Below, in pieces: positions 11,208-48,046 of a stretch of 64,000 nt of DNA. The DNA lies in IMG/VR virus record IMGVR_UViG_3300045242_000006, positions 33,287 to 97,286 of that record; one strand, written 5' to 3'. Source of the DNA: a virus. Within the stretch, counting starts at the first letter, position 1. Each line of letters starts with the position of its first letter. The notes beneath the pieces are model-generated. The model had not been told where the DNA came from. It searched no databases and was given only the letters and a program-made list of their open reading frames with translations. Both the position numbers and the translations under genes were made by a program.

Positions 11208-11283
11208 TGGAGCAGTTGACCGGATTCGAACCGGCGTCTTCTTGGTTGAAAGCCAAGCATCCTATCCGCTAGACGACAACTGC
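11208..11283 (-). tRNA. tRNA-Glu(TTC)
   Basis: Acceptor GCAGTTG/CAACTGC is perfect, anticodon loop CTTTCAA gives TTC, T-loop TTCGAAT, CCA encoded. Its 5' 22 bases overlap the 3' end of the HNH gene. Confidence 0.9.
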
Positions 11284-11690
11284 AAAATTCCTGCATGTAC
11301 CTTCCGATGGCAATTAGAGCAAAGGATGACACATTTTCTAATCTCTGCCTTTAACGTGTTTGTTGAGTACGTTAATAGGTTACTTGGGTTTGCATCTTTG
11401 CCAGATGGATCAGTGTGATGAAGGTCCAAAGCTACTGGCTCTTTCTCACAGCAAACCAAACATCCGAAAAATGACTTGAACCGTCTCATTAAGTTTCTGT
11501 TGTACTCTCTTGTCTCGGCATTTCTTGCTTTGATAGAGCTTCTACGATTCTCGTTTGTGACGTAACCACTATTATTCTGTGCTTTCTGACAATCACGACA
11601 CCTTGTCTGTAGTCCATCAGGCTTAACCTTATTCTTATTGAACTCAGACCGAGGCTTTAACTCATCACAGACTTTGCAGTGTTTTGTCAT
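11262..11690 (-). CDS. HNH endonuclease with N-terminal zinc ribbon
   Basis: 142 aa. An N-terminal C-x2-C...C-x2-C ribbon (KHCKVCDEL, then TRCRDCQKAQ) is followed by a HNH core: CLVCCEKEPVALDLHHTDP and then CVILCSNCHRKVH, giving the paired cysteines and catalytic His. Free-standing HNH genes of this type are commonly homing endonucleases that spread within phage tRNA arrays. The stop lies inside the tRNA-Glu gene and the start overlaps the upstream micro-gene stop (ATGA). Confidence 0.82.
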   Translation of the reverse strand: MTKHCKVCDELKPRSEFNKNKVKPDGLQTRCRDCQKAQNNSGYVTNENRRSSIKARNAETREYNRNLMRRFKSFFGCLVCCEKEPVALDLHHTDPSGKDANPSNLLTYSTNTLKAEIRKCVILCSNCHRKVHAGILQLSSSG

Positions 11691-13255: not shown

Positions 13256-13349
13256 TGGCGGGTAGCAGAGGAGTCGAACCCCATCCGGCTCTCGCCAGAA
13301 CCTAGTTTTCAAGACTAGTCGCAGGACCAACCCCGCTGCATTACTACCC
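13256..13349 (-). tRNA. tRNA-Ser(TGA)
   Basis: 94 bases, class II. Acceptor GGGTAGT/GCTACCC, anticodon stem CTAGT/ACTAG with loop CTTGAAA gives TGA, long variable arm, T-loop TTCGACT, CCA encoded. Confidence 0.88.
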
Positions 13350-13645: not shown

Positions 13646-13963
13646 TTACTTAGCGAAATTAAAGACTGGAGCCAGCGGCTTATCTTCAAGTTCATCTGGA
13701 GCATCACTACCTTTTGCTAACTGCATCTTAATAGCGATGTCAGATTTATACAGCATATGGTACATGTTTACAAGCTCTTGTTTCATTCTAAATCTTTCTT
13801 TGATTGTCAGGGATGTATCATCGCTGATTGTGATCATCGTGTCAATAGCGCTTCCAAAAATCTTTTTAAGAATCCTCAATGCCACATCAAGTTCTGTCTT
13901 GGTAATACCACGTGCTGCCATTTCAGCCTTCGTAGGACGACCACCTTTATTCTTCTGTTCCAT
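13646..13963 (-). CDS. Candidate terminase small subunit
   Basis: 105 aa from the ATG at 13963 with GGAGAAAGCA in front; an upstream TTG is less likely. The start MEQKNKGGRPTKAEMAARG is the GGRPTK-type opening often seen in phage small terminases, followed by two long helices (DVALRILKKIFGSAIDTMIT, then FRMKQELVNMYHMLYKSDIA). TerS proteins bind the packaging site and load the large terminase. It would be unusual in lying 4.7 kb from terL across the tRNA array. Alternative: an unrelated DNA-binding helical protein. Confidence 0.55.
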   Translation of the reverse strand: MEQKNKGGRPTKAEMAARGITKTELDVALRILKKIFGSAIDTMITISDDTSLTIKERFRMKQELVNMYHMLYKSDIAIKMQLAKGSDAPDELEDKPLAPVFNFAK

Positions 13964-14075
13964 TGCTTTCTCCAATTAATTGTGAGTGGTAGGCTTACTA
14001 CCCGAAAGGAGGAGGAAACAGGTATGCTCCACTCACGTAACTTGTTTAACAGACTGTTTCTGTCTAAGTACCGTA

Positions 14076-14103
14076 AGTATAACACGATTACACTATCTGT
14101 CAA
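14076..14103 (-). promoter_or_regulatory. Strong promoter for the small-terminase/tRNA transcript
   Basis: Minus strand TTGACA, 16-base spacer, TATACT, close to consensus. The 5' leader downstream contains the stem GTGAGTGG/CCACTCAC (14037-14030 with 13988-13981) enclosing a CCTCCTCC run. Confidence 0.75.
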
Positions 14104-14127: not shown

Positions 14128-14325
14128 TTAATTTTCTTTAATTGGCATTGGACCAGTCACACCATTAACTGGATATCGTCCGCACACATATTCTCTTTCT
14201 GTATATGAATTGTATACAAGATTTCTGCACACACTACAAAGGTCTTCTTCTTTATGTGCGAGCTTATTCCAAGAGGGTGTATCATTATTTAGTAAAGGTA
14301 CATCGCAAGCTTTGCAACGACTCAT
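14128..14325 (-). CDS. Small zinc-ribbon protein
   Basis: 65 aa with two C-x2-C pairs: MSRCKACDVPLLNNDTP and DLCSVCRNLVYN, a likely zinc ribbon. Ending is YPVNGVTGPMPIKEN. AAGGAAACCC lies 10-12 bases before the ATG. It lies downstream of the structured RNA locus and could be on the same transcript. Function unknown. Confidence 0.7.
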   Translation of the reverse strand: MSRCKACDVPLLNNDTPSWNKLAHKEEDLCSVCRNLVYNSYTEREYVCGRYPVNGVTGPMPIKEN

Positions 14326-14419
14326 TATTAGGGTTTCCTTGTATTGGTTATTTATTCATACAATCTCCTTATATTCATTAGGTTAGGTGGTTGTATGTGT
14401 TGGTTAGTGTACTTGATCT

Positions 14420-14732
14420 GCTCATGACGCTGAGTTTCGTATTGGAAGATAGAATTACCCTAAGAAACGCCATACAGAAAAATCTGCCTAAGACGTAACT
14501 AAGGTTCTATCTTCCACACATCTCATGACGCTTGAGATCGTGATTGGCCTGCATGGGCAGGAGTCGATTGCTCGACAGATTCTGATCATTCCACCTTTCG
14601 GCGTCACCGCTACGCTTTAACCAGATTAGAACTCAGCTTGCCCAGTAGCACTCTCTTCATAGGCGTCCATCCCGAGGGACTTCCTGATGGCCGGTGAGTG
14701 GTGCTTTCGCAGACATATCTCTCCATCAGTTT
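14420..14732 (-). ncRNA. Candidate structured non-coding RNA (about 310 bases)
   Basis: No coding frame. The leftward transcript from the promoter at 14737-14765 can form at least eight helices: CTGATGG/CCATCAG (14729-14723 with 14690-14684); TGC-GAAA-GCA (14711-14702); GTCC/GGAC (14680-14665); CGCC-GAAA-GGTG (14603-14592); GTCGA-GCAA-TCGAC (14576-14563); CCTGC/GCAGG (14561-14548); ATCTC/GAGAT (14538-14520); and an 11-bp stem 14515-14505 with 14454-14444. Three loops are GNRA tetraloops, as in compact folded RNAs. A CTCATGACGC(T)TGAG hairpin occurs twice (14421-14434, 14522-14536). Family not recognised. Confidence 0.55.
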
Positions 14733-14736
14733 TTCC

Positions 14737-14765
14737 ATACTATCATGACAAATCTACCAAGTCAA
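14737..14765 (-). promoter_or_regulatory. Leftward promoter of the structured RNA
   Basis: Minus strand TTGACT, 17-base spacer, TAGTAT. Its -35 box is only four bases from the -35 box of the rightward promoter. Confidence 0.7.
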
Positions 14766-14828: not shown

Positions 14829-15248
14829 ATGACTGACTACGTTGATGTAGTTGAACATAACCCAATCGTCTTCGTCAAGGCAATCTGTGAAAAGATTGCA
14901 GAAGGCTACGCAGTCCATAATACAATTGCTGGTTACCCAGATTTTGGTTTGTATGGGTGCAGGGTGCGGCTCTACAAGGAGCGTAAAGGTGCCACAGTCG
15001 TTGGTGGTGTAGGTGAGTCTAACCTCGTTGAGCAATATGACCCTATGGGCTTCCTGCTGAGTCTGGAGGCTGCTATGCTCGCAGGTTACACACTAAAGGA
15101 TAGCGGTAGACACTTGCTTCAGCCTGATGGTTTGAAGAGTGTGGAAATGGAGCTTGTCAAAAGCGAGCCAGCAACACCAGCAAAGAAAGCTCCTGCAAAG
15201 AAAGCTTTGAAGGCTGAACCAACAATTAATGAAATGGAGACTGAATAA
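14829..15248 (+). CDS. Hypothetical protein with a basic C-terminal tail
   Basis: 139 aa, first gene of the rightward operon. Residues 1-105 look globular (MTDYVDVVEHNPIVFVKAIC, then YGCRVRLYKERKGAT). The tail PATPAKKAPAKKALKAEP resembles histone H1-like Ala/Lys/Pro tails and may bind nucleic acid. AAGGAG precedes the ATG. No family recognised. Confidence 0.75.
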   Translation: MTDYVDVVEHNPIVFVKAICEKIAEGYAVHNTIAGYPDFGLYGCRVRLYKERKGATVVGGVGESNLVEQYDPMGFLLSLEAAMLAGYTLKDSGRHLLQPDGLKSVEMELVKSEPATPAKKAPAKKALKAEPTINEMETE

Positions 15249-46884: not shown

Positions 46885-48000
46885 TTAGATCCGCTTCACA
46901 CCGTGTTGCTTAGCAAGGTAGAAATCATTCAGGTTTATCTGGCTTGCAACTTCTTTCAAAAGCCTGCTCTGCTCTGCAATGGTACGCTGAATTTCAGCCT
47001 TCTGCAACTCAAGTGCTTTGATCTTTTCAAGATACTCAGACACCTGCAATTGAGGTAGAGCCTCGACAGGCATTTTAGTCATCTTGTCTATATCTTTCCA
47101 GCTATAGACGCTAATGTCAGAGCCAATAGGACCGAAACCCGGAGAGGATGAGTCATCGTCATAGTTCAGAACATACAGCTCACCATCGTCCTTGTATTGG
47201 AAAATGTCACCTACTTTATAGCCCATCCGTCGGCATGGTGTCAAGCTTCCAACCAAACTATCATCCCACTCGGTTTTGATAGCGTGTACCAGCTCACCCA
47301 GTTGCAGCATACGATTTGCACCATACTCACCGCCCCACTTATCAGTGATGCTACCAAAACTTTCAGTCGGGCTCTGCCCATTAACGCCTTTGACAGGGTA
47401 GTGGTATTCACCGCTGTAGCTTGGAACCCTGCGGATCAAGTTTTCTTTGACCCAAGCCATTTGGCTATAATCAGCACCAGCCTTTCGAGCAAAAGTTTCA
47501 ATGTTGTCACAAATCCCGTAACTATAAGTCAGACCGTTAGGACGTGGATTGGCTATTGGAGCAGCACGGTAGAGTGTGACAGCTTCCAACATAGCTTCAA
47601 AGGTGTCAACAGCATTCTTCTGTAGTGGCGTGTAAATCACTTCACCGGGCCACGGCGATCTTGCTGGCGTGGGGAGCACTTTGCGGTAGTCAGTAGCCAT
47701 CATGGCTGCAACACTCTCTGGCGGTAGCATGGGCACAGGCAACGGCACCTGAGGGGAATCTACTGCGATGGCAACTCGCGGCTGTTCTGGGATGATTTCC
47801 AAATCCTCAATAAGGAAACACTTGCATCCAACAGTGCCGCACTCAGACTTAAAGAAAGGTAAGCGGGATTTATCGTCGTCGATAAGAATGAAGACCAAAT
47901 CACGTAGAGCCTCTGAGTACCCCTCACCTACCAAACGCAAACGGGTGACGTCTTCAATGAAGCCTTTCTCTTGTGCTGGTGTGAGTGTGGACGTTGTCAT
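46885..48000 (-). CDS. Hypothetical protein with C-terminal coiled coil
   Basis: 371 aa from the ATG at 48000, about 40 bases after its promoter; a longer frame to 48099 would include the promoter and is rejected. MTTSTLTPAQEKGFIEDVTR, a Pro-rich middle (VPLPVPMLPPESVAAM), a central KVGDIFQYKDDGELYVLNYD beta segment, and EYLEKIKALELQKAEIQRTI coiled coil at the end. No family recognised. Confidence 0.7.
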   Translation of the reverse strand: MTTSTLTPAQEKGFIEDVTRLRLVGEGYSEALRDLVFILIDDDKSRLPFFKSECGTVGCKCFLIEDLEIIPEQPRVAIAVDSPQVPLPVPMLPPESVAAMMATDYRKVLPTPARSPWPGEVIYTPLQKNAVDTFEAMLEAVTLYRAAPIANPRPNGLTYSYGICDNIETFARKAGADYSQMAWVKENLIRRVPSYSGEYHYPVKGVNGQSPTESFGSITDKWGGEYGANRMLQLGELVHAIKTEWDDSLVGSLTPCRRMGYKVGDIFQYKDDGELYVLNYDDDSSSPGFGPIGSDISVYSWKDIDKMTKMPVEALPQLQVSEYLEKIKALELQKAEIQRTIAEQSRLLKEVASQINLNDFYLAKQHGVKRI

Positions 48001-48046
48001 TGCTCTGTTTTCCCTTGCCTTAATGGCGTTCTGTTTAAGTGGGACC

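Follow-up and report, generated by a model that had tools for sequence, protein, structure and literature searches.

About 310 nt without a gene lie beside the tRNA array in the window, as we call the whole 64-kb stretch of a 97,286-bp virus record that was analysed here, and the question is what these nucleotides encode and what their product does. The closest named relatives of the virus are Otagovirus-type Pseudomonas phages. The locus occupies positions 14731-14421 of the minus strand, in the intergenic region between an ORF on the same strand (14128-14325) and a rightward ORF starting at 14829 on the plus strand. Gene order around it is kept across relatives: one flank holds small divergently oriented genes, PhoH and a ClpP-like protease, and the other a CXXC protein of 65 aa, a protein of 109 aa and then the tRNA array. 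The locus in the window, hereafter copy I, is the head of this small-ORF/tRNA operon.

A preliminary description, made from the sequence alone, had proposed a compact structured RNA of at least eight helices at this place, with three GAAA or GCAA tetraloops. We found that the minus-strand stretch is a conserved, covarying structured RNA. The folding energy is modest evidence by itself (z = -2.3). The covariation is what decides: across 31 diverse sequences, 86% of the cells were paired, compensatory changes occurred in 26 of the 28 pairs, and the covariation score was 0.666, against 0.04-0.14 in controls with slid partners. An early fold scored on 40 full-length sequences was paired in 85.9% of cells and had 358 compensatory cells, compared with 29-114 in slid controls; P8 was entered one column off in this test and hence scored too low. 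The alignments were made with MAFFT on 20 sequences and on the 31-sequence set, which includes distant relatives, and P4, P7 and P8 were not hand-optimised. Compensatory changes and non-triplet indels among the relatives rule out a protein-coding explanation, yet several records annotate small ORFs there.

At least eight helices are present, and they vary by compensation around short unpaired blocks that are conserved (AGAGAUAUGUC, CACUCACCGG, AUGAAGAG, CUGA and GGAAUGA). P1 was 97.7-99.6% paired, with compensatory changes at 7/7 pairs, and S1, which swaps between GCC/GGC, GGG/CCC and GCG/CGC, was 100% paired on A1. S1 interlocks with P4 and P4 with P5, forming chained pseudoknots, while P6 sits within P5. 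The three tetraloops are there in the window sequence (GAAA in P2 and P6, GCAA in P7), and the loops vary in relatives (GTAA, TTCG, GAGA). Between P1 and S1, at about 14669-14680 on the minus strand, the window carries a 12-nt insertion, GTCCCTCGGGAT, which is absent from all aligned relatives and can add a small hairpin.

Table 1. Positions in the window of the structured RNA, its parts and the neighbouring elements.
Feature	Position	Strand	Basis
Sigma-70-type promoter TTGACT-17-TAGTAT, extended -10 (TG)	14737..14765	-	Sequence; annotated putative promoter_11 in PAK_P4
Whole structured RNA (putative leader), P1 to X2	14421..14731	-	Alignment and covariation
P1/P2 domain: P1 (14729-14723/14690-14684) around near-invariant internal loop AGAGAUAUGUC / CACUCACCGG, and hairpin P2	14684..14729	-	Covariation
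Helix S1 (GCC/GGC), across motif AUGAAGAG; opening link of the chained pseudoknots	14640..14664	-	Covariation
Helix P4 (GCTAC/GTAGC), pseudoknotted with S1 and P5	14609..14649	-	5/5 pairs compensatory
U1 (GUUCU), first upstream partner of the switching strand	14628..14632	-	Same sequence as D, and complement of B, in relatives
Helix P5 (TCTGGT/ATCAGA), with hairpin P6 (14603-14592) inside it	14581..14625	-	6/6 pairs compensatory, 99.2% paired
U2 (AUCU), second upstream partner of the switching strand	14577..14580	-	Mutual information and pair counts
Hairpins P7 (GCAA loop) and P8	14548..14576	-	Alignment; present in predicted folds
X1, AGCGUCAUGAG, in P9 loop region	14522..14532	-	Direct repeat search
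B, putative switching strand (GGAAGAUAGAAC)	14504..14515	-	Pairs with U1/U2 or with D
D, 3' strand of hairpin P10 (AUUCUAUCUUCC), contiguous restatement of U1 and U2	14444..14455	-	Mutual information and pair counts
X2, second copy of AGCGUCAUGAG	14421..14431	-	Direct repeat search
Conserved micro-ORF AUG AAU AAA UAA downstream of copy I, with strong Shine-Dalgarno site	14348..14359	-	Alignment of relatives
First downstream gene: 65-aa CXXC (zinc-ribbon-like) protein, phrog_10364	14128..14325	-	ORF list and annotation

The RNA belongs to a new, uncatalogued family. No Rfam family matched it at gathering or relaxed thresholds, in the window or in relatives (12 relatives in the gathering-threshold scan), which agrees with its having gone unrecognised at the outset. 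This includes the regulatory families, in a library that was not checked for put and EAR models. A literature search, with the 2017 ISME J transcriptome paper on PAK_P3 and PAK_P4 outside its scope, found no description of it. The family is well delimited, covaries strongly, chains its pseudoknots and visibly has two states in its design, which makes it testable at once.

By blastn, the gene-free stretch matched about 184 phage records, almost all of Pseudomonas phages. We collected relatives from IMG/VR with a DNA pattern for the P1 loop and used a covariance model, R1, which parts genuine members (E 1e-7 to 1e-34) from sequences that fit the pattern by chance and was positive on 47 of 48 whole records. 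Since the distant groups were found through this pattern, distant members lacking the P1 loop, as in Vibrio phages, are undercounted. All 18 GenBank genomes of Otagovirus, Pakpunavirus or Flaumdravirus type carry exactly two strong copies each, as does the window's own genome (whole-record positions 47853-48020, the copy studied here, and 13919-14076, outside the window). This phage group includes PAK_P1, PaP1, JG004 and phiPsa374, and several of its members have been studied for therapy or crop protection. R1 had no match in PAK_P3 (Nankokuvirus, placed in Vandenendeviridae). A host origin was rejected: none of 274 Gammaproteobacteria genomes, a set without a positive control, carried the RNA, and the well-scoring matches in a search of genome contigs were two phage-like contigs.

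Copy II lies at a divergent junction and heads an operon running into DNA primase/helicase. In vB_PpS_SYP and phiPMW the RNA is likewise placed at a divergent junction and heads other operons, without tRNAs; in Vibrio breoganii phages it is upstream of gene 59 and terS, and in most metagenomic relatives it is upstream of co-directional genes. The neighbourhood of a tRNA array, to which the preliminary description had drawn attention, therefore stands for copy I and fails for copy II and for the relatives in which the RNA heads tRNA-less operons. The presence of two copies at the heads of major operons in all tested members of the three genera suggests that the RNA likely matters for the timing of gene expression. 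The operon divergent from copy II contains an RNA ligase gene in M5.1 (L085) and PAK_P4 (L149).

The near-consensus leftward promoter reported in the preliminary description is a recurrent feature of the family. A promoter was found upstream in 32/33 copy I and 27/29 copy II loci, compared with a background of 5.4% in random windows, and in 7/10 loci of groups B, D and E; none of the eight group C loci has a recognisable sigma-70 promoter. Its distance is mostly fixed, at -43 to -45 from GAGAU in copy I. Judged from the -10 element, transcription should begin at P1, at most about 0-7 nt from this helix. Furthermore, we found no intrinsic terminator between the RNA in the window and the next downstream gene. 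In named phages, and in most further loci that were read, the gene behind the RNA runs in the same direction.

We observed that a single strand of the RNA has two sets of partners. Mutual information over 65 sequences showed that B, the 5' strand of P10, covaries with D and also with U1 and U2, which lie directly before and directly after P5. D amounts to U1 and U2 joined (in the window, GUUCU and AUCU versus AUUCUAUCU), and the identity holds by column (106=283, 100%; 158=288, 94%; 108=285, 92%). For D and B, 97.7% of cells were paired and 56 compensatory cells were counted (4-14 in slid controls); for U and B the figures were 88.0% and 53 (3-20 in slid controls), the latter a covariation that is not fully independent because it follows in part automatically from the B:D pairing and the identity of U and D. 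Of the two helices, U1:B is the weaker (83%, against 98% for P10), and its last pair is seen in 14/40 sequences. By eye, U1 is restated in D in distant members as GTCT, GTTCT, GTTAGT, GGAAGT, GGAAAT or ATAC, a stretch of only 4-6 nt. In energy folding, an RNA truncated ahead of D closes the U1:B helix beneath a multibranch loop, and the full-length RNA forms P10.

Judged from its pairing pattern, a strand B shared between two exclusive partners has the topology of a riboswitch or attenuator. We therefore consider it somewhat more probable than all other readings together that the RNA works in cis, as a switch in the 5' leader of phage operons, by control of transcription elongation (attenuation or antitermination). 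Transcription would start at the RNA's own promoter, making the RNA one leader of the operon, and the pseudoknotted receptor-like domain (P1 and S1-P4-P5) would fold. B would initially pair with U1 and U2, closing the junction under the P5 pseudoknot; after D is transcribed, B would pair with D as P10 and the junction would be undone. The fold that persists would decide whether RNA polymerase continues, or how the first gene is translated, and a ligand, a protein or the polymerase may bias which fold wins.

Riboswitch and attenuator leaders, together with the put RNAs of phage HK022, are the nearest working analogues. Like the former, the phage RNA has a 5' receptor-like domain and two mutually exclusive conserved helices with one common strand, and is positioned behind a promoter, 5' of a co-directional operon. 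It differs from them in being phage-borne, in its chained pseudoknots, in the lack of a match to any Rfam class, and in a mirrored word, X, outside the switching helix. As for an expression platform, P10 in group C is followed by GGGGTCTTTTT and was called terminator-like in L051; that P10 ends like an intrinsic terminator in this one subgroup is why we prefer elongation control. Group C has the clearest terminator-like P10, yet it is the group without a recognisable upstream promoter. In the window's group, P10 lacks a U-tract and gives no visible sign of termination.

Alternatively, the nascent RNA could bind RNA polymerase and confer resistance to terminators and Rho along the operon, as in put- or EAR-like processive antitermination. 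HK022 putL and putR lie at the heads of two early operons, bind RNA polymerase and confer terminator resistance; put and EAR are likewise phage or operon leader RNAs just past a promoter, one per major operon. The two copies per genome, each right after a promoter and heading a long operon, fit this reading, the near-invariant unpaired AGAGAUAUGUC and CACUCACCGG could contact a protein or the polymerase, and a largely untranslated tRNA operon would need protection from Rho. However, put and EAR elements are much smaller; the phage RNA contains a two-state switch and, in the scan described above, matched no Rfam model. Processive antitermination has no need of the exchange between U, B and D or of the repeat of X, and the Nankokuvirus PAK_P3, of the same family of phages, manages without the RNA. 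We regard it as unlikely, though the likeliest of the alternatives.

X is a word of 7-16 nt that stands before P10 (X1, following AUCUCA or GGCUCC) and again after it (X2, following AAACUC or UCACCA). The preliminary description had taken a duplicated CTCATGACGC-TGAG hairpin as a sign of internal repetition. In the window, AGCGTCATGAG is indeed present at both places, and this doubling is conserved family-wide; the repetition is real and belongs to the two-state, leader-type architecture. The word is the same within a locus and differs between loci, with 44 versions over 70 loci. In 35 loci with distinct X, which had been selected for a repeat of 7 nt or longer, X1 agreed with its own X2 at 7.97 of 8 positions and with the X2 of another locus at 2.65. 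The longest direct repeat at the spacing of X averaged 10.2 nt; when these sequences were shuffled the average was 6.1. Furthermore, single-base changes in X are mirrored between relatives (AGCGTC/AGTGTC; ATTCTGG/ATTTTGG/ATTCTAG), as are a few bases farther upstream (CGA or variants). We found no consistent segment complementary to X within the RNA, and no partner tracking its changes in eight phage genomes compared piece by piece. The copy II X of one subgroup did yield a site of 11 nt, away from the element, which was judged to be chance, and a binding site common to loci is ruled out because the two copies in a single genome carry different X. The identity of X1 and X2 falls outside what the leader-switch model explains and, to our knowledge, no known regulatory RNA answers why such a mirrored word must be doubled. 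In two Pakpunavirus copy II loci (L045 and L020), the X1 hairpin is enlarged and contains two copies of X that flank an AT-rich insert (ATCTGCATA...TATCTGCATGAG); in close relatives there is a single copy.

That the RNA acts apart from its operon, as a trans-acting or architectural RNA of the GOLLD/ROOL sort or as an sRNA with two identical X loops, appears quite improbable. GOLLD and ROOL are ornate phage RNAs that adjoin tRNA genes, and the size, the complex fold and the tRNA neighbourhood of copy I speak for an RNA of this sort; X1 and X2 can both sit in hairpin loops in the window's group. However, the RNA differs from GOLLD and ROOL in its length of about 310 nt, in heading operons and in having a second copy away from tRNAs, so that the association with tRNA genes is confined to copy I and is not shared by copy II, SYP or phiPMW. 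The GOLLD and ROOL models of Rfam did not match the window or 12 relatives at the gathering threshold and were not among the weak matches. The missing terminator before the downstream gene and the copy II at the head of a replication operon speak against the stand-alone RNA tied to tRNA genes suggested by the preliminary description, and the failure of any complementary X target to covary in the eight genomes also argues against it. In the RNA-seq-based annotation of PAK_P4, a putative promoter but no small-RNA feature is marked at the locus, and sRNA1 is marked farther on, between tRNAs. PAK_P3 sRNA1 and sRNA2 and PAK_P4 sRNA1 are noncoding RNAs of about 80-135 nt from the tRNA region of related phages, detected by RNA-seq (PMC4933390), and differ from our RNA in size and position; identity with those of PAK_P3 was rejected, as PAK_P3 has no model match and its sRNAs lie elsewhere. 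A free RNA like GOLLD or ROOL is less likely than the cis-acting leader switch.

The one partner that always matches X is the DNA template strand, which led us to consider an RNA-DNA strand exchange. Here D and X2 would be drawn into P10, and the freed U and X1 would replace them on the template, giving a tethered R-loop that might, for example, serve as a primer for replication or keep the RNA close to the polymerase. Such an exchange would explain why X1 equals X2, why X drifts freely through its many versions and why complementary RNA is absent, the complement being the template DNA; copy II also heads a replication operon. Hybrids of 7-16 nt are short, however, and the scheme is pure conjecture; we take it to be very unlikely in this form. 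The more general idea of a self-referential strand-exchange switch, in which an arbitrary, fast-changing word is needed twice and would act by sequence identity instead of through recognition of any fixed sequence, the shared strand probably being template DNA, is doubtful. Finally, it is extremely improbable that the RNA is mobile or catalytic (an intron-like, homing or RNA-guided element), X1 serving as the guide and X2 flanking the target: a short word that varies freely and occurs both within the RNA and again at its 3' edge does resemble a guide and its target, but the positions are syntenic and apparently vertically inherited, X1 is internal rather than terminal, annotations show no adjacent recombinase, reverse transcriptase or TnpB-like gene, and no Rfam ribozyme or intron matches.

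Several minor features accompany the locus. In group D (L031, L035 and L062), the RNA itself contains a second promoter-like sequence, TTGACR-18-TACYAT, past the P5 region. In most Otagovirus-type copy I loci (L001-L018, L077 and L046), a micro-ORF lies behind a AGGAGAUUGUAUG Shine-Dalgarno sequence, 20-40 nt before the zinc-ribbon gene. It has 0-7 codons after the AUG, reading AUG AAA UAA in many relatives and AUG UGA in ventosus, and is possibly a leader peptide or a minigene. Within the tRNA array, the tRNA-Ser(tga) gene (13261-13348, minus strand) also scores as tRNA-Sec, below the family cut-off, presumably due to its long variable arm only. The array of the window also contains an HNH-nuclease-like ORF (11262-11690, minus strand), and HNH genes are likewise found in the corresponding regions of PAK_P2, PAK_P4 and KIL3.
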